Shown: positions 11,209 to 22,789 of the stretch, in pieces
Layout: the number at the start of each line of letters is the position of its first letter
Numbering within the stretch: position 1 is the stretch's first letter
The notes under the pieces: generated by a model
What the model was told of the DNA's origin: nothing
Database searches by the model: none
Seen by the model: the letters and a program-made list of their open reading frames with translations, nothing else
Program-made: the position numbers and the translations under genes
IMG/VR virus record: IMGVR_UViG_3300042876_001168
Coordinates: 1-32,921 of that record
Reading direction: 5' to 3' (one strand)
DNA length: 32,921 nt
From: a virus

Positions 11209-11762
11209 TGGTATGCTCCAAATACTTCGACTAAAGGACCGGACATCACACGAATGCGCTCAGGGTATGGCACGCTATTCCTGCAATCTTCTACCCAGGG
11301 ACGGGTATAAAACTCCAGTGGCATGTCGAACATGGGAGAGTAATAATCGCTTGGCTCGCAATGTTTCACCTTGCCTTGGTAACAATCCATCCCGCACAGG
11401 ATGACGGGATCGCATCCCATCCACAGCGCGAACCATGCCGCTGTATTACTTGAAAAATGACCTGTCCACACGTTCGGCACATCGAACAGGATATCGCTCG
11501 TTGGTTCCGGACTCACATGGACAGCGCGATGTTCTGCGACCGCCTTCTCCATCAACGGGTTTGTGGATGGCGTGTCGTTGTAAACCATGAAATCCACGAA
11601 CTCACAGTGATAAAAAGCGTGGTAATTCACAGCGATCATCAGGCAATCCTTCGGAAGTCGTTTGATGTCCTCTGGCAGGCTGGGACCGCCGCCCAAAATC
11701 GCGGCTGGAACTCCATCGTATAAATCCTTCATCCCGGAGAGTTTCGAACGGAATACTATCAA
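11205..11762 (-). CDS. MptE/DUF115-like Rossmann protein, unexpected head-region cargo
   Basis: 185 residues from a TTG start. AILGGGPSLPEDIKRLPKDC followed by IAVNYHAF resembles the glycine-rich nucleotide loop of the DUF115/MptE-like (MAF, 6-hydroxymethylpterin pyrophosphokinase) fold. The downstream NTAAWFALWMGCDPVILCGMDC matches its second conserved block (A...A..lG..pI.L.G.D). Several Cys residues cluster near the end. TTG at 11762 is chosen because it overlaps the portal stop as TTGA and AGGAG lies 8 bases upstream; ATG 11792 would overlap the portal by 34 bases. Its role between portal and protease is unknown; a sugar- or nucleotide-related host modification function is possible. Confidence 0.6.
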   Translation of the reverse strand: MIVFRSKLSGMKDLYDGVPAAILGGGPSLPEDIKRLPKDCLMIAVNYHAFYHCEFVDFMVYNDTPSTNPLMEKAVAEHRAVHVSPEPTSDILFDVPNVWTGHFSSNTAAWFALWMGCDPVILCGMDCYQGKVKHCEPSDYYSPMFDMPLEFYTRPWVEDCRNSVPYPERIRVMSGPLVEVFGAYQ

Positions 11763-13378
11763 CTCGTCATCTCCTCGATGAAATTCATCCATTCATCCGC
11801 GTCGCTCGCCTGATTCAACGCCTGCTCCACTTCTTCGACACTGGCATTCAAAAACAACTCGCGCCTCGCCTCGCAATAATCGCTGATCCGCACAAGAATG
11901 AATGGATGTAGTTGACCGCCTTTCAATTGCTTCTGCGCGTCCAACAGCGGTTGAAATTGTTTCCACAGGAAGGCTGGGTGATCGTGGTTATAGAAATTAT
12001 CCAGCCATAAGCAAAACGCCTCGATATCCGCATTCTTCTTAAGGCGTTTTACCGCTCCGCTCACATCGTTTTGCTCGCGCTTCATCGCCCGCGCAACCGC
12101 GTCGCGCCACAAGGGCTTGAGCGCGCTCGCCTGATTCCCTGGCTCACTGGTCTTCTTACTCGCCGAATCATTGGGTTGCTGATCCGCTGGCTCGCTCACG
12201 GGTTCTTCCGTGCGCGTCATGTTCAACGGACGCCAGTACACGTCGCCGCCCTTGTAAGGATTCATATTCTCACGCGACCGCGCCTCGTTCGGCGACATAA
12301 TTCCGTTGTTGATCGCCTGCACGTAAGCCGCGTAGCGCGTCGCAATATCGCCGCGCAGCAAACCATCCATCAGATGTTCATAGAACAACGTGCTGCGATC
12401 CTTCGGCAGCAGCAGTTGCATGTTCAAAGACTGTTCGGTTCGCACGCCCCAGGGTCGCAATGTATGGTTGACATAGCCCTGTTCCTGCGAATCGATCCCG
12501 CTGCCCCACGACGTGGTGCGTTCCACGTCGCCGATCATGTGCGGCGGCACGCGGAAAATCCGCGCGATCTCGCTCACCTGGAATTTGCGCGTCTCTAAAA
12601 ATTGCGCGTCGTCCGGTGGAATGGATAATTTCTCGATGCTCATTCCCTCTTCGAGGATGATGTCTTTATGGCTGTTATCCGTGCCCTTGCGCTCTGCCAG
12701 GGACTCCTTCAGGCGGTTATACGCCTGATCTCCCAGCGTGCCGGGATGCTTGAACAGCACGCCGGGGTTCGCGCTATTGGAGAACAACTTACTGCCGAAT
12801 TTCTCGGTGCTGATTGCCAGCCCGATGGCATTCCGCGCCAGCGAAATGCGCGAATAACCGATCAACCCGTCGAAGCCGAATGCGGGGATATGCAAAATTT
12901 CATCCGCAAAGAAGATGCGCGGCTTGCCCTCACTCGTTTGGTACGTGTAGATTTTTTGTCCCTGCTTACGTTCCACGGTCATACGATCGGGACGCAGCGG
13001 CCACACTTCAGCCACGTCGCCGCGGCGGTCGAAGATTGGCTGTCCGAAGAAATTGCCCCACCCCAGCAGGTGACCAACAATAATTTCTCGAAAGACCATC
13101 GAAGTCATTTCCGGGTTTGGTTGGTCATGCATTAGTCGATAATACGGGCTATCCCATGCGCGGATTTTATTTCTCCCCATCCGCCTGTATAAAATCAATG
13201 GCAGCGACGAAATGTCTTCCGACAGGATCGTGAAAGCTGCCAGCACCGCTGAAACCGTCAGCGACAATTCCGGCGTGATGGTCTCATCGCTGTAGCTGCG
13301 TTCTTGCCGCGACGCGCGTGCGGGACGCTGGGTGGGATCGGCTTTTGCCGTTACAAGCATTGCGGGAGATAAAGGCAT
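11759..13378 (-). CDS. Portal protein, HK97-type
   Basis: 539 residues starting MPLSPAMLVTAKADPTQRPA. It has the standard phage portal pattern: ELSLTVSAVLAAFTILSEDISSLPLILYRR, YYRLMHDQPNPEMTSMVFREIIVGHLLGWGNFF, VWPLRPDRMTV, and ILHIPAFGFDGLIGYSRISLARNAIGLA, then the stem and clip region with RIFRVPPHMIGD and SEARS-type NNGIMSPNEARSREN. The last about 120 residues are a helical extension rich in Lys, Phe and Trp. The start ATG 13378 overlaps the preceding stop as TAATG; the reading frame upstream is non-coding extension. The protein forms the dodecameric DNA channel and binds the terminase. Confidence 0.95.
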   Translation of the reverse strand: MPLSPAMLVTAKADPTQRPARASRQERSYSDETITPELSLTVSAVLAAFTILSEDISSLPLILYRRMGRNKIRAWDSPYYRLMHDQPNPEMTSMVFREIIVGHLLGWGNFFGQPIFDRRGDVAEVWPLRPDRMTVERKQGQKIYTYQTSEGKPRIFFADEILHIPAFGFDGLIGYSRISLARNAIGLAISTEKFGSKLFSNSANPGVLFKHPGTLGDQAYNRLKESLAERKGTDNSHKDIILEEGMSIEKLSIPPDDAQFLETRKFQVSEIARIFRVPPHMIGDVERTTSWGSGIDSQEQGYVNHTLRPWGVRTEQSLNMQLLLPKDRSTLFYEHLMDGLLRGDIATRYAAYVQAINNGIMSPNEARSRENMNPYKGGDVYWRPLNMTRTEEPVSEPADQQPNDSASKKTSEPGNQASALKPLWRDAVARAMKREQNDVSGAVKRLKKNADIEAFCLWLDNFYNHDHPAFLWKQFQPLLDAQKQLKGGQLHPFILVRISDYCEARRELFLNASVEEVEQALNQASDADEWMNFIEEMTS

Positions 13379-13569
13379 TATTTCTTCTCGCTCATCCACG
13401 TCGCCAGGTAGGACGTAATCACCGACTCCACAGCCATTGCAGCCCCAACGACGACAAATGCTGTTGCCACAGAAACGCGCAGGCTGAGACCGATAAACAG
13501 AAACAACAAACCGATCCAATAGACCCGCTCGTTGCGGTCCAGCGTTCCGAGCCAAGGTACAAGGTTCAT
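13378..13569 (-). CDS. Small two-segment membrane protein, holin-like
   Basis: 63 residues, MNLVPWLGTLDRNERVYWIG..., with two hydrophobic segments at about 17-30 and 34-54 and a charged C-terminus (SEKK). It starts on an ATGA overlap with the upstream coiled-coil gene and ends on a TAATG overlap with the portal start. Size and topology fit class II holins, but position next to the portal is unusual, and no endolysin is seen in the window, so function is open. Confidence 0.65.
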   Translation of the reverse strand: MNLVPWLGTLDRNERVYWIGLLFLFIGLSLRVSVATAFVVVGAAMAVESVITSYLATWMSEKK

Positions 13570-13946
13570 GGGGTACTCCCTGTGATCGATAAATAAATCA
13601 ATCGTCCGATAAAGTAGACCAGCCCGCTGATGATCAACGCCGTGGCAATGCCTGCCGCCCATTTGCCCCACCCACTGATGACCTTGACTGCATTGCTGAT
13701 TTTGTCTGCGGCGCCAATCTGTAACTGGATCATGGCGCGCAGCTCGTCGATCTCTGTATTTTGTGTCGCAATCTGCTTCTCCACAGCGGTAATCCGCGCC
13801 ACCAGCAAGGGAGAGCAACCTGCCTCACGCAACTCAATCGAACGGATCCGCTCGTCGAATGACCGCATGAGGTTTTTGATCTCATCAAACCCCTTATCGA
13901 AACGAGCGCCGAGACCGTCCAATTGCTGTTGATTCACGCCTGGCAT
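13566..13946 (-). CDS. Coiled-coil protein with C-terminal membrane anchor (XhlA-like architecture)
   Basis: 126 residues from ATG 13946, with AGGGG and GGGGAG upstream. Residues about 1-90 are helical and coiled-coil-like (GFDEIKNLMRSFDERIRSIELRE, VARITAVEKQIATQNTEIDELRAM); residues about 95-122 form one membrane segment (WGKWAAGIATALIISGLVYF). A soluble coiled coil with one C-terminal anchor is the layout of XhlA-type hemolysins and some spanin or holin partners. With the holin-like gene directly downstream it may be a lysis-associated pair. The reading upstream of 13946 runs through a small RNA locus and is not coding. Confidence 0.65.
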   Translation of the reverse strand: MPGVNQQQLDGLGARFDKGFDEIKNLMRSFDERIRSIELREAGCSPLLVARITAVEKQIATQNTEIDELRAMIQLQIGAADKISNAVKVISGWGKWAAGIATALIISGLVYFIGRLIYLSITGSTP

Positions 13947-13951
13947 GTCCC

Positions 13952-14034: not shown

Positions 14035-14074
14035 AAAAAACGCCCGACGACTCTCTTGCGAGAATCGTCGGGCG
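14035..14074 (-). terminator. Intrinsic terminator of small RNA copy 1
   Basis: On the minus strand a 15-bp hairpin (outer arms 14041-14050 and 14065-14074) closes with a GCAA GNRA tetraloop and is followed by six T residues (14040-14035). Confidence 0.9.
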
Positions 14075-14130
14075 CATCGGTTCCGACAAACGTCCCGGTC
14101 AAATACCAGGACTGCGTAAATTAGTTCTTA
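14035..14130 (-). ncRNA. Small structured RNA locus, copy 1
   Basis: A roughly 96-nt minus-strand transcript is predicted from a consensus promoter (TTGACA, 16 bases, TATAAT) to an intrinsic terminator. The RNA contains GCAGTCCTGG (14115-14106), loop TATTTGA, CCGGGAC, giving a 7-bp hairpin with one U-G wobble, then the linker GTTTGTCGGAACCGAT and the terminator hairpin. The second copy at 22232-22337 keeps hairpin, loop and linker almost exactly. The variable pair positions are wobbles as RNA on the minus strand but mismatches on the plus strand, which fixes the strand. It matches no riboswitch, ribozyme or sRNA family I know. It lies between the PIN-nuclease operon and the coiled-coil membrane gene. 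It could be a trans-acting sRNA, an antitermination element or a leader attenuator. Confidence 0.75.
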
Positions 14131-14136
14131 TGTTCT

Positions 14137-14164
14137 ATTATAGTCATCCAGGGCAGATTGTCAA
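14137..14164 (-). promoter_or_regulatory. Consensus sigma-70-type promoter for small RNA copy 1
   Basis: TTGACA at 14164-14159, a 16-base spacer and TATAAT at 14142-14137, both hexamers perfect, on the minus strand. The expected transcript start is near 14130. It lies immediately after the stop of the PIN-domain gene, so the RNA is an independent unit. Confidence 0.8.
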
Positions 14165-14170
14165 GTCAGG

Positions 14171-14659
14171 CTAGAATCTCATTTGTTTCACGTAAGGTTC
14201 ACAGATATGAATTCCAATCATAGCCTCGAATTTGTAAAGTTTTGTGTCGTATGTATGAAATTCATCAATTGGGCAAACATTTTTATTGTACCAATACGCT
14301 GATGCAAGGTGAACAGCATCTTTTGGTGACAATTTCCATTTTTGAGGAATGGCATCTCGAATAAGATTTCTGGCAAGTGTGGAAATATGATGCCCATTGT
14401 CAATCATCTTTATTAGTTTGTGGTTTTGCCACATAGCATCAATAGCTTCTTCTACACGCGGATCTAACCTGCCATTCATTTTTTCGTCTAAAACATGCGC
14501 GACTTCCACTATACTTTCTGACGAGGTGAGGATACAACTGCTTTCATTTTCTTCAATTTCTTGAATTAGATCACGAATAGTTTTTATTCTTTCGGGAACA
14601 CCATTAAGGTGCGACAGAAAAACATTACTATCCCAATACAAGCATATTTTATTCGGCAT
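14171..14659 (-). CDS. PIN-domain nuclease, VapC-like toxin candidate
   Basis: 162 residues with the acidic PIN residues in order: Asp10 in YWDSNVFLSHLNG, Glu49 or Glu52 in SESIVEVAHV, Asp114 in SPKDAVHLASAYW, and Asp138 in EFHTYDTKLY. These bind the metal ion for RNA cleavage. It overlaps the upstream 250-residue gene by 11 bases. GC content is clearly lower than the neighbours (about one third in the stretch I counted, against roughly half or more around it), which suggests recent transfer. A toxin-antitoxin or phage-exclusion role is inferred; the unknown partner would be the antitoxin. Confidence 0.8.
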   Translation of the reverse strand: MPNKICLYWDSNVFLSHLNGVPERIKTIRDLIQEIEENESSCILTSSESIVEVAHVLDEKMNGRLDPRVEEAIDAMWQNHKLIKMIDNGHHISTLARNLIRDAIPQKWKLSPKDAVHLASAYWYNKNVCPIDEFHTYDTKLYKFEAMIGIHICEPYVKQMRF

Positions 14660-15401
14660 CTCTTAACCGCCTTATGGCTTCTTCTGGATATTCGTCCCCG
14701 TTATTCCAGGGAATGATTCCCGCTAAACTCATAAAGTCTAGTTGTCCATCACGTAAGACTTGAATATAGTTGATTTCGCGAACGTCAGTTGGTCTTCCAG
14801 TGTTGGGATCTCTATATACCTGACCAGCAACAAATACATGTTTGTCCCATGCATCTAGCATCAAGCTTTCTTGCCCAGTTCCTAGATAGCAGTTTACGGC
14901 GCGGTCAAACAGCGAGTCGTACAGAACAAAACGTATTTTTCCACGTTTTGATAATGTTTCCACCGTGCCCGATATAGCCCCAAAAGAATACTCTCTCGAA
15001 AATGCTTCATCATAAGCCAACGGTTTATCAATTAAGGATGATTCGTTGTCGGTTACAAATTCAACAGCTTTTATTTTTCCGTTTATTAAACTGGTGAGAG
15101 CTCGAGCTTCTTTAGAAATATTTTCAGAATAGGGAATTGGTTTTTTGTGTTTTATTGCAGAGCCAACAACTTCATACGCTCTAACAACCCTTTCAACAGC
15201 ATCATCGAAAGGAGATTTACCTATAATAACGGCTGTAGCACTACCAGCTTCAAGTTTAGTGATTTCCCATTCGACATTTGATTTTCCCACAACATCATCT
15301 GTTAATGCATCAACCAACGCAGAAAAATGCTCCATTGCCTGCGCAAATTCGGCAAGTGGGATATTTCCTTGCAACTTTAAAGTAAGAGTATTTTTAGGCA
15401 T
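14649..15401 (-). CDS. Unfamiliar partner of PIN nuclease, possible antitoxin
   Basis: 250 residues, low GC like the PIN gene. I recognise the general form from proteins seen next to PIN nucleases but know no named function: LTLKLQGNIPLAEFAQAMEHFSALVDAL, then VEWEITKLEAGSATAVIIG, then VERVVRAYEVVGSAI, then a beta-rich C-terminal half (ISGTVETLSKRGKIRFVLYD, HVFVAGQVYRDPNTGRPTDVREI). No DNA-binding helix-turn-helix or known antitoxin fold is visible. AAGGAG sits eight bases before ATG 15401. The large size argues against an ordinary VapB. Confidence 0.6.
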   Translation of the reverse strand: MPKNTLTLKLQGNIPLAEFAQAMEHFSALVDALTDDVVGKSNVEWEITKLEAGSATAVIIGKSPFDDAVERVVRAYEVVGSAIKHKKPIPYSENISKEARALTSLINGKIKAVEFVTDNESSLIDKPLAYDEAFSREYSFGAISGTVETLSKRGKIRFVLYDSLFDRAVNCYLGTGQESLMLDAWDKHVFVAGQVYRDPNTGRPTDVREINYIQVLRDGQLDFMSLAGIIPWNNGDEYPEEAIRRLRDAE

Positions 15402-15449: not shown

Positions 15450-15497
15450 TACAAAATGACAGACGCCGGGGTGAGGGGGGCACCCAAGCGTCTGTCA
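15450..15497 (-). terminator. Hairpin terminator upstream of PIN operon
   Basis: Perfect 10-bp outer stem TGACAGACGC/GCGTCTGTCA (15457-15466 with 15488-15497), inner GGGTG/CACCC stem, then only four Ts on the minus strand. It ends the small-gene pair 16016-15529 and begins exactly where a transcript from the LexA-box promoter would start. Confidence 0.65.
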
Positions 15498-15503
15498 ATG
15501 TTT

Positions 15504-16074: not shown

Positions 16075-17784
16075 CTAATTGAGCGTGCGAATGCCCCGTT
16101 TTTCATACACACTTTTGACTTCTGGATGACGCAGCGCCAGATCAATTGCCATGACCAACGCCACAATACCGTCGATTTTCTCTCTACTTTTTTCTTTGTC
16201 AGGTTTAATGTTTCCTGCGGGATCCATGCGTGCCACCAGGTTATCAGCCATCCAGGTAAGCACGGGGTTGTTTCCGTGCTTGAGCTTTCCTGACAAAACC
16301 AAACGCTCCAGCTCCTTCATCGGTGGCGACATCGAGGCAAATCCCTGTCCAAATTGTGCCATCGTCATCCCCTTGTTTTGTAGCACAGTTGCCACACGTG
16401 CCGCGCCCCAGCGGTCGAATGCAATCTGATCAAGATCGAACATATCCGCGTCGCGTTCGATGCCTTCAAAGATCCAATCATAATCAATAGTATTCCCCGG
16501 CGTCGCCTCGATATACCCTTCCCTGACCCATTGCTCGTATTTCACACCCTGGTCACGCGTGCGAATGAGCATGTTGTCCTCTGGAATCCAGAAGCGCGGT
16601 ACAACATGGATATTTTCGTCATCATCGAGGAACACCATCACGAACGAGGTGATGTCTGACGTGGAAGACAAGTCCAACCCGCAATAGGCTGTCATGCCGC
16701 GCAAACGCTCAGGCATTCCCAGCGCGGGGACATCCCCAGCGCAGTTGCGCCAGTTGTCCATGTCCATCCACTTTACTGCTCCCTGCACCCACACGTTCAT
16801 CTCGCGCCGCAGGAAGTTGTTCAATGCGGTGGGCATCTTCTCGGCGCGCTTGGCTTTCATACGCAGGTCGTCGATATATTTCGATACTCCGAGGTTTGGG
16901 TTTGCCTTAATCCAGACAGATTCGTCCCGCCAGTCGTCACCCTCATCGAGGGTAAAGATAATTCCAAACCATGTATCATCAACGAATGACCCATCCTGCC
17001 AACCTTCAAGAACTTTGCAGGTGTATTCATGCTTTTCCCAGCAGATGCTTTGGCGGTCCATGCCAGCAGTGGTAATGGCAATGATCATCGGCTGTTCACG
17101 TGAGCCCGTTGCCGTCTCTAGCACGTCCCACATTTCACGGCTTTTCCAGGCATGGACTTCATCGGCGATCACGCCATGCACATTAAGACCATCCGTAGAA
17201 TCCGAGTCCGCGCCAAGCGGTTCATACTTACTGGCTGTTTGTTCGAGGTTGAGGTTGTCTTTGTATATTTTGATGTGCTTCTTCAGCCCGGCGTTCTTGC
17301 GCACCATGCGGATTGCTTCTTTATGGACAATGCGTGCCTGGTCTCGCTTGGTGGCAGCGCTGTAAACTTCCGCGCCGGGTTCGCCATCAGCAAAACCGAG
17401 ATATATGCCAAGCCCGGCCCCCTTGGTGCTTTTCCCATTTTTTCGAGCGACCTCTTCATAAATGACTCGAAAGCGCCGCAAACCATCCTCGCGCTTCCAT
17501 CCGAAGCCAACCCAGATAATAAATTGCTGCCAGGGTTCGAGAATAATGAACTCCCCTTTTCCACGCCCCCATTTGCCTTTCGAATGGCGCAACATGCCGA
17601 TGAAATCAAGGACATATTGCGCAGCGCCTGCGTCAAAATACAAGCCGCGTTCGTGACCATGTTCCAGATCATGAACGTGACGCTCGCATGCCAGCCTCAC
17701 CCACTTGCACGCGATGATTCTGCCGCTGATTACATCCTGCGCATACTGCTCTGCGGGATGTAGTTTCTCCTTCCTCTTTGCCAT
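16075..17784 (-). CDS. terL: Terminase large subunit
   Basis: 569 residues of the Terminase_1/HK97-like type. N-terminal ATPase: adenine-region WQQFIIWVGFGW, Walker A-like VARKNGKST at about 112-120, Walker B VIADEVHAWK at about 205-214, and AITTAGMD as the coupling motif. C-terminal RNase-H-like nuclease: CGLDLSSTSDITSFV with the first catalytic Asp, a middle QIAFDRWGA, and DGIVALVMAIDLA near the end with the last Asp. It cuts and pumps DNA into the prohead through the portal. The start follows the second small terminase by one base; only a weak ribosome site is present, consistent with coupling. Confidence 0.96.
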   Translation of the reverse strand: MAKRKEKLHPAEQYAQDVISGRIIACKWVRLACERHVHDLEHGHERGLYFDAGAAQYVLDFIGMLRHSKGKWGRGKGEFIILEPWQQFIIWVGFGWKREDGLRRFRVIYEEVARKNGKSTKGAGLGIYLGFADGEPGAEVYSAATKRDQARIVHKEAIRMVRKNAGLKKHIKIYKDNLNLEQTASKYEPLGADSDSTDGLNVHGVIADEVHAWKSREMWDVLETATGSREQPMIIAITTAGMDRQSICWEKHEYTCKVLEGWQDGSFVDDTWFGIIFTLDEGDDWRDESVWIKANPNLGVSKYIDDLRMKAKRAEKMPTALNNFLRREMNVWVQGAVKWMDMDNWRNCAGDVPALGMPERLRGMTAYCGLDLSSTSDITSFVMVFLDDDENIHVVPRFWIPEDNMLIRTRDQGVKYEQWVREGYIEATPGNTIDYDWIFEGIERDADMFDLDQIAFDRWGAARVATVLQNKGMTMAQFGQGFASMSPPMKELERLVLSGKLKHGNNPVLTWMADNLVARMDPAGNIKPDKEKSREKIDGIVALVMAIDLALRHPEVKSVYEKRGIRTLN

Positions 17785-21402: not shown

Positions 21403-21762
21403 TCAAGCCCCCCTCCCCCTGCGGCTTCCATCATTTGCAGTCTTTTTGTTATTACACCGCACACACAGGGATTGGTAGTTGCTTTCATCGTCTCTGCCTC
21501 CTTGTCGCAAAGGTTTGATGTGATCAACAATAATTGCCTTAACTAATATGCCTGCATGATAGCCATACAGATCAACACAATAGGGATGCTTCTCTAACCA
21601 TGCATCTCGCTTTTTCTGCCATGCCGCATCGTATCCTCGACGCGCTGCGTTGGGACGTCGATCACGCGGGCGTGGCAGCCGATGTCGTGGGCACCGGCTG
21701 CCATCGTAGATTAACTCAGGACATCCAGGCTCAGCGCATGGATGTGGTGGACGTCTAGGCAA
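21403..21762 (-). CDS. HNH endonuclease
   Basis: 119 residues. N-terminal Cys/His cluster (PCAEPGCPELIYDGSRCPRH) and C-terminal HNH core: VDHIKPLRQGGRDDESNYQ and SLCVRCNNKKTANDG, with two CxxC-type pairs holding zinc. This type stands beside terminases in many phages and helps the large terminase make specific cuts. It overlaps the upstream membrane protein by eight bases. Confidence 0.93.
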   Translation of the reverse strand: MPRRPPHPCAEPGCPELIYDGSRCPRHRLPRPRDRRPNAARRGYDAAWQKKRDAWLEKHPYCVDLYGYHAGILVKAIIVDHIKPLRQGGRDDESNYQSLCVRCNNKKTANDGSRRGRGA

Positions 21763-22201
21763 GGTGACCGTATCGCAGAGAGTACGAGAATGCAGGCAGT
21801 CTCAAGCCCTGTGTAAGAGCAATGTGTACCTGCTTTGAGCCAATGAACTGAATGATGTAGGCAAACACCAACCCGCCAATCTTGGCAAACTCGGCGATCT
21901 GCGCGTCAACGCTATTGAAATCAAACTGTGGGTAGAGCTTGAAGATAACAGCAACTCCAAGCAGAACAGCCAGATTCGCAATTGCAGACCATACGCCTGC
22001 TGTCCCATCAGTGACCACGCCTCCCCACTTGAGGATGTTGATAACCAGCGCGATCAACGCGAACGTACCAACCAGCCCCTCCACAATCTTGAGGATGCTG
22101 TCCAGTGACAACCCAAACAAACCAAGCACTGCGGCGAACAGGGCCAGCAATCCAGCTGGCAATCCAAGCGCCTTCAAAATAGTTTCGATATCGAGCTTCA
22201 T
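21755..22201 (-). CDS. Small membrane protein, three to four segments
   Basis: 148 residues from ATG 22201, with AAGGAG seven bases upstream. Hydrophobic segments at about 13-32 (GLPAGLLALFAAVLGLFGL), 41-57, 70-90 (AIANLAVLLGVAVIFKLY) and 112-120. Family not recognised; size and topology are compatible with a holin or a membrane component of the translocation-like cluster. Longer readings upstream of 22201 run into the small RNA locus and are not coding. The gene lies directly downstream of small RNA copy 2. Confidence 0.7.
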   Translation of the reverse strand: MKLDIETILKALGLPAGLLALFAAVLGLFGLSLDSILKIVEGLVGTFALIALVINILKWGGVVTDGTAGVWSAIANLAVLLGVAVIFKLYPQFDFNSVDAQIAEFAKIGGLVFAYIIQFIGSKQVHIALTQGLRLPAFSYSLRYGHLA

Positions 22202-22231
22202 ACTTATCTCCTTTTGATTAGATGTGGAAAC

Positions 22232-22264
22232 AAAAAACACCCGACGCCACAATGGCGCCGGGTG
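22232..22264 (-). terminator. Intrinsic terminator of small RNA copy 2
   Basis: Minus-strand 12-bp hairpin (22238-22249 with 22253-22264, three-base loop) followed by six Ts (22237-22232). One pair is a U-G wobble on the minus strand but an A-C mismatch on the plus strand. Confidence 0.88.
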
Positions 22265-22337
22265 CATCATTTCCGACAAACGTCCCAGTCATATACCAGG
22301 ACTGCAAACGATATTAAATTGTTGTGTGCCTCCTTTC
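22232..22337 (-). ncRNA. Small structured RNA locus, copy 2
   Basis: Second copy of the element at 14035-14130. It has hairpin GTCCTGG / CTGGGAC around the loop TATATGA (22302-22282), then the linker GTTTGTCGGAAATGAT and a GC-rich terminator. Compared with copy 1, the loop differs at one base, the hairpin at one, and the linker at three, all compatible with structure. A TATAAT box lies upstream, giving a predicted RNA of about 106 nt. A strong AAAGGAGG site with no start codon after it is present near the 5' end, so the leader is either a decoy ribosome site or untranslated. It lies directly before the 148-residue membrane gene, as copy 1 lies before another membrane-anchored gene. Confidence 0.72.
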
Positions 22338-22343
22338 AATTTT

Positions 22344-22349
22344 ATTATA
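22344..22349 (-). promoter_or_regulatory. -10 box for small RNA copy 2
   Basis: Perfect TATAAT (22349-22344) on the minus strand in an AT-rich stretch. No good -35 is found at 16-17 bases, so this promoter is weaker or needs an activator, unlike that of copy 1. Confidence 0.55.
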
Positions 22350-22376
22350 CAACATCTTATTTCTTGTTTATATAAG

Positions 22377-22502
22377 TCACGCTCCTATCCAATATGGGAT
22401 CGTGACAATATAAGCTGTAATGACACAGACTGCCCATGCGACAAATAGAACAACCAAGCCCAGTACGATCTTTGCCACTGTTGATAGAATTCGCGCAGTC
22501 AT
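22377..22502 (-). CDS. Small membrane protein, 41 residues
   Basis: Starts MTARILSTVAKIVLGLVVLF with an ATGA overlap with the previous stop. One long or two short hydrophobic segments fill residues 5-38, ending PYWIGA. No family recognised. The close coupling to the zinc-ribbon gene supports it as real. Confidence 0.6.
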   Translation of the reverse strand: MTARILSTVAKIVLGLVVLFVAWAVCVITAYIVTIPYWIGA

Positions 22503-22789
22503 ATCTTTCTTGGATAATGTTCTGCCAGTGCGGATAGGGCATCTTCCCCGATCAGCCAATCCCGTGTGGCTCCACACCCTGGCACAGTGCATTTGATCTC
22601 GCGCATCTCACCCACGACTTTCCCTCGCAACGTTGGCAGGGACTGGGGTTTATATAACGCGCTGGTTTCGTACAACATCAACGTACCGACCTTGATACCA
22701 TTTTGGGACCCGATCATCACACGCCTGACCTCACCCATCACATGCCCACGCGGACAACACCAATACCGTCGTCTGTTGGAGTCAGCCAC
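22499..22789 (-). CDS. Zinc-ribbon protein, 96 residues
   Basis: Cys pairs at the start (YWCCPRGHVMGE) and in the second half (IKCTVPGCGATRDWLIG), the latter a zinc-ribbon knuckle. Between them is a basic beta-rich stretch. No family recognised; DNA or RNA binding is likely. Overlaps the initiator-like gene by eight bases and the next small membrane gene by four. Confidence 0.65.
   Translation of the reverse strand: MADSNRRRYWCCPRGHVMGEVRRVMIGSQNGIKVGTLMLYETSALYKPQSLPTLRGKVVGEMREIKCTVPGCGATRDWLIGEDALSALAEHYPRKI

Follow-up and report, generated by a model that had tools for sequence, protein, structure and literature searches.

A terminator-embedded RNA pseudoknot proposed as a shared attenuator of both late operons in Chloroflexota-type phages

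What is the role of an RNA that starts at a perfect promoter, folds, and meets its own terminator before the genes that follow? The question is raised by a locus in the window, that is, the whole stretch of DNA analysed here, a 32,921-base IMG/VR phage record whose main genes lie on the minus strand. The initial annotation described a TTGACA-16-TATAAT promoter at this locus, and this is present on the minus strand (14137–14164), where it matches the sigma-70 consensus at 12 of 12 positions, with a predicted start near 14130. The related second copy that it also reported was located at 22228–22308 on the minus strand and is 88% identical over 50 nt. The first element (copy 1 of that annotation; 14035–14118, minus strand) is called here copy B and forms, with its pseudoknot and terminator, the leader of the head/tail operon; the second (copy 2) is called copy A and lies in the leader of the packaging operon.

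All parts of copy B are on the minus strand. The P1 hairpin (GUCCUGGU-AUUUG-ACCGGGAC, 21 nt, 14092–14112) includes a conserved U-G wobble and is preceded by GCA (14113–14115), the 5′ strand of helix P0, whose partner UGC (14074–14076) lies within a conserved GAUGC. Helix P2 is made of GUCGG (14083–14087), the antiterminator strand, equal in sequence to part of the terminator 3′ arm, and CCGAC (14067–14071), which at the same time belongs to the terminator 5′ arm. The intrinsic terminator, including its U-tract, occupies 14035–14075; its stem (14075–14040) has 16 bp with 10 G-C pairs and a GCAA loop, and is followed by six U. The same parts are found on the minus strand in copy A, with P0 at 22305–22303/22266–22264, P1 at 22302–22282, P2 at 22277–22273/22261–22257 and the terminator at 22265–22237. 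The earlier remark that the U-G pairs arise only in minus-strand RNA proved right (one P1 U-G pair, for example, stands in 44 of 50 rows), whereas a GNRA-closed terminator with six U describes copy B but not copy A, which has no GNRA loop. The conserved linker is also present, but it is not simply unpaired and contains two strands of the pseudoknot.

The structure was evaluated in an alignment of 53 copies. P1 is 94.8% paired and covaries. P2 (GUCGG/CCGAC) is 88.6% paired, with double changes in all five pairs, its alternatives including UUCGG/CCGAA, GACGG/CCGUC, GAUGG/CCAUC, AUCGG/CCGAU, GUCAG/CUGAC and GUUGG/CCAAC. P0 (GCA/UGC) shows pairing in 96.7% of cells and double changes in two of its three pairs (GUA/UAC, GCG/CGC, GUU/AAC, GUC/GAC), and the terminator helix covaries strongly, with changes on both sides in 9 of 12 pairs. 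None of 500 shuffles reached the covariation score of the structure, and the P2 signal was destroyed when the partner was slid by 1–3 columns. When terminators were swapped among 72 distinct copies, the observed count of perfect P2 helices was never reached in 20,000 trials, a test in which the automatic extraction was crude and relatedness was left uncorrected. All five P2 pairs were also present in 10 of 12 copies that had been found without a P2 constraint, GAUGG/CCAUC and GUUGG/CCAAC among them. Since P0 and P2 cross, they form an H-type pseudoknot, the first loop of which contains P1, and since P2 uses the CCGAC of the terminator 5′ arm, pseudoknot and terminator are mutually exclusive.

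Two other readings of the linker were rejected: the local hairpin GUCG-GAAN-NGAU, which the folding program preferred, showed covariation below random, and an ORF with a TTG start at 14102 is interrupted in relatives by stops and indels. Contig L020 (2847–2910) shows a naturally occurring deletion of the switch, a copy A that is missing the terminator 5′ arm and retains P1 and the GUCGG strand.

To our knowledge, Chloroflexota phages are almost unstudied. Covariance-model and pattern scans detected the element in about 90 copies, a round figure because some contigs are near-duplicates, on some 60 Chloroflexota-type contigs of phages or prophages. A search with the gene of the terminase large subunit (TerL) fetched 80 phage loci, in which a two-copy nhmmer profile found 29 significant copies; a covariance model (R1) found 31 in the window and the TerL set together. 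Covariance-model searches gave 28 further copies in prophage contigs and portal-based loci, another 35 lay on contigs retrieved by two DNA patterns, and whole records held a few others. With the model of the relatives, copies B and A score 87.9 and 88.8 bits (E 5e-22 and 3e-22), both being in the training set, and about 60 copies on loci outside that set score above 30 bits. Weak model hits in L113, L129 and L137 were set aside on reading, as P0 and P2 are not kept there.

The initial annotation had judged the RNA novel and proposed a covariance-model search of phage genomes and Rfam. Neither the two window copies nor those of eight relatives match an Rfam family at the gathering threshold, which bears out that judgement; the one Rfam match in the window is a tRNA elsewhere. 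With E values up to 10, copy B gave only chance-level scores against Rfam, and blastn of copy B against 50,697 cultured-phage records returned only chance pieces with E of 0.1 or worse. The exact P1-core pattern of both copies had no match in IMG/VR, being too strict. The element is thus a well-supported new structured RNA family with the anatomy given above, strongly covarying and absent from Rfam, and its occurrence as a pair in each genome provides a sequence handle for spotting such phages in metagenomes.

Host contigs bearing the element are labelled Anaerolineales UBA5796 and Chloroflexi CFX6 or come from a groundwater Chloroflexi MAG; one MAG labelled Bacteroidetes has it also, with copies identical to those of phage contig L018. 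Among 400 Chloroflexota genomes, true copies occur only in one prophage (G001). A riboswitch of host genes in Chloroflexota was rejected, the weak hits in these genomes being ordinary terminators. As the true copies in these genomes are confined to a prophage, the element belongs to mobile DNA and not to host genes. In another integrative element, within a single Chloroflexi genome, a tandem pair of elements (L197; G003:C67:81128-81301) lies between two tyrosine-integrase genes; the terminator of the first element is degenerate and the small gene g96, described below, is not adjacent.

Homology mapping to the window genes placed the copies at two sites. The copy A site lies 3′ of g96 and 5′ of the packaging operon (TM148-HNH-TerS-methylases-TerL), which in the window begins with the TM148 membrane protein gene (21755–22201, minus strand) 3′ of copy A and contains the TerL gene (16075–17784, minus strand). 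The copy B site lies 3′ of TerL-g90b-g70 plus variable genes and 5′ of the head/tail operon, in the order (variable genes)-TM63-portal-protease-capsid; in the window copy B is followed by a membrane/coiled-coil protein gene (13566–13949, start at 13949, minus strand), then by TM63 and the portal protein gene (11759–13390, minus strand). In the mapped relatives the element is in the operon sense at both sites without exception. The two-site layout is kept even on contigs whose best TerL match to that of the window has about 30% identity (e.g., L226, L253, L263, L268 and L285); each late operon is therefore headed by the element. The earlier suggestion of an attenuator acting on the membrane gene after copy B fits as to the attenuator, but that one gene is not its main target, because in dozens of phages the element leads the packaging operon and the head/tail operon in their entirety.

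Between the TerL and portal operons of the window, a PIN-domain gene (14171–14659, minus strand; Pfam E 2.9e-6) and its neighbour of no assigned family (14649–15401) form an insertion, possibly a toxin-like accessory pair. In L010 (4064 and 7795) and L064 (1732 and 3299), two elements occur in the copy B region and flank inserted genes, as if accessory cassettes travelled with a leader of their own.

Such flanking copies, and a terminator stem that is the strongest feature of the element, would also suit a plain terminator that insulates early, accessory and late genes from one another and takes no part in regulated read-through. An insulator, however, needs neither P0, P1, P2 nor the linker residues, which are conserved and covary, and the promoters sit directly 5′ of the terminator element with no gene in between, so that this explanation is hardly credible.

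We propose instead, with a probability of about 0.78, that the element is a cis-acting transcription attenuator, the 5′ leader common to both late operons. The covariation of pseudoknot and terminator, their mutual exclusion, the fixed place 5′ of both operons and the association with g96 are well supported; termination by default, the direction of the switch and the identity of its factor are what we infer from them. Three features of an attenuator were found here: compensatory changes in the terminator, a covarying alternative helix on the terminator arm, and a sense position in the leader. In the proposed mechanism, once the polymerase leaves the promoter, the leader would fold P1 and then the H-type pseudoknot (P0 crossing P2), which would hold the terminator 5′ arm. 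If the pseudoknot were not stabilised, the terminator 3′ arm would displace P2 and transcription would end some 100 nt in; a factor sitting on the pseudoknot would block the terminator and let the late operon be read. The packaging and head/tail operons would in this way be under one common switch. As the pseudoknot competes with the terminator, late-gene expression probably waits for something that favours the pseudoknot.

In nested folding of growing copy B transcripts, P1 and P2 appear at lengths of 64–80 and the terminator afterwards, and in copy A prefixes P1 and P2 appear only briefly (lengths 84–88) among other folds. The terminator fold reaches −47.8 kcal/mol against −19.8 kcal/mol for P1 plus P2 as a nested fold, a score that does not include the pseudoknot; as the terminator is much more stable, the default state would be off and read-through would need something that holds the pseudoknot. 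A counterpoint to the switch is that P0 has 3 bp only.

The factor would most likely be a phage protein of the early or middle phase, with g96 as the first candidate. The g96 gene (22499–22789, minus strand) lies just upstream of copy A and encodes a small Cys/His-rich protein of 96 residues, mostly beta in the AlphaFold model (pLDDT 83.5), with invariant His16, Cys67, Cys72 and Trp78; it is probably zinc-binding. The protein has no match in Pfam, PHROGs or NCBIfam, and its fold has no Foldseek match below E 0.001 and a best VIA Z of 2.4, which is not informative. A marginal profile match of its C-terminus to BIR zinc domains (E 0.0008) rested on the Cys/Trp pattern and was set aside. The gene precedes nearly every copy A, mostly by a few hundred bases and elsewhere by up to a few kilobases, and 17 related records that lack the element also lack g96; in the L144/L145 pair the element is present and g96 is not detectable. 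Because element and g96 are confined to one phage group, common descent alone could account for part of the association. In lambda, the gene of Q is located upstream of the late promoter. The position of g96 equals that of Q, and g96 has no detectable similarity to any family. That this protein of unmatched fold binds the terminator-embedded pseudoknot and activates the two late operons simultaneously is put forward tentatively, at somewhat less than even odds, and the L197 tandem pair, 5′ of an integrase gene with g96 not next to it, is a counterpoint to it. Chloroflexota phages would gain from this model a concrete, testable late-gene switch and a small protein family named as its likely partner.

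The promoters of the two leaders differ. Strong TTGACA/TATAAT promoters precede copy B in many relatives too, many of them near-consensus, whereas copy A promoters have TGTATAAT in common and are without a −35 (window 22344–22351, minus strand); the −10-like TATAAT of the window (22344–22349, minus strand) has TG just before it and no consensus −35. This contrast suggests that the two promoters differ in timing or that an activator works at copy A. Within its 5′ part, the copy A leader of the window contains a STAB-SD-like GAAAGGAGG (22329–22337, minus strand); roughly half of all copy A leaders have this motif close to their expected 5′ end, with no start codon after it. It resembles the STAB-SD of Bacillus, which binds the 30S subunit and blocks RNase J1 (PMC4113751). 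A leader peptide 3′ of this motif was rejected, the start codon not being conserved.

A stabilising-type motif in roughly every second copy A leader, a strong promoter, a short transcript and a strong terminator could also be expected of a small RNA that acts in trans, some 100 nt long and with the terminator as its normal 3′ end, and a phage regulatory sRNA was one of the first suggestions. But the position is always sense and at the head of late operons, the P1 loop is variable, and the exclusion between P2 and terminator would be pointless in a simple sRNA. Neither the switch anatomy nor the fixed place 5′ of the operons calls for such an RNA, which is very improbable.

A second covarying RNA hairpin, with the loop UGCCCCCCUCA, was observed in the window at 15454–15500 (minus strand), where a predicted transcript begins, and is conserved in about 18 relatives. 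Its promoter (15532–15504, minus strand) has a LexA-box-like GAACAAAAGTTC in the spacer between −35 and −10. In L004, L011, L012, L013 and L015, a further hairpin of this type lies between the promoter and copy B.

Structured RNAs carried by phages are also represented by the cyanophage manA/wcaG and PhotoRC-II motifs (PMC2864571), whose structure is unrelated to that of the element and which go with host-metabolism genes (PMC2864571). The putL and putR sites of HK022 are a closer parallel in layout, with two copies per phage, near promoters, of a structured RNA proposed to affect termination, and the initial annotation had considered an RNA of this kind. Such a leader would act on RNA polymerase by processive antitermination, its own terminator being the first target. 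HK022 put, however, is a pair of long stem-loops, about 70 nt altogether, without a terminator of its own, needs no phage protein and acts on distant, downstream terminators (PMC9378689). The put RNA works via the beta′ zinc-binding domain of RNA polymerase. The element is made of P1, a pseudoknot and a terminator, and one of its strands is part of that terminator and covaries with the 5′ arm, a feature for which a put mechanism has no need; such a mechanism is considered improbable here.

The fluoride riboswitch shows that coupling a pseudoknot to a terminator can make a switch (PMC11077080). Like the fluoride (crcB, RF01734) and ZTP (pfl, RF01750) riboswitches, in which a stabilised pseudoknot means gene on, the element combines a small pseudoknot with an intrinsic terminator that overlaps the 3′ part of the pseudoknot (PMC11077080, PMC2864571). 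This architecture (PMC11077080, PMC10085676; PMC2864571), with the conserved unpaired residues of the P2-P0 loop (A37, G41 and A42 of row 1), would fit a true riboswitch whose pseudoknot senses a small molecule or ion reporting host state and switches the late genes on. We consider it unlikely, since the element heads phage structural operons and not metabolic or transport genes, none was found in host genes of the 400 Chloroflexota genomes, and a partner gene, g96, travels with it. Unlike the fluoride and ZTP RNAs, it sits before phage late operons and differs in sequence and helix order, and neither the window copies nor those of eight relatives matched their covariance models.

The late leader of lambda runs from pR′ through the 6S RNA to tR′ and is served by the antiterminator Q, which is loaded at DNA and RNA polymerase. 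The attenuator proposed here resembles it in the constitutive-looking promoter, the short terminator-ended leader before late genes and the small phage gene directly upstream. It differs in having two leaders per phage and in that lambda Q is not loaded on an RNA pseudoknot. If g96 acts on the pseudoknot as suggested, the element would represent a new class of RNA-based late-gene switch, doing via RNA what lambda Q does via DNA and RNA polymerase.
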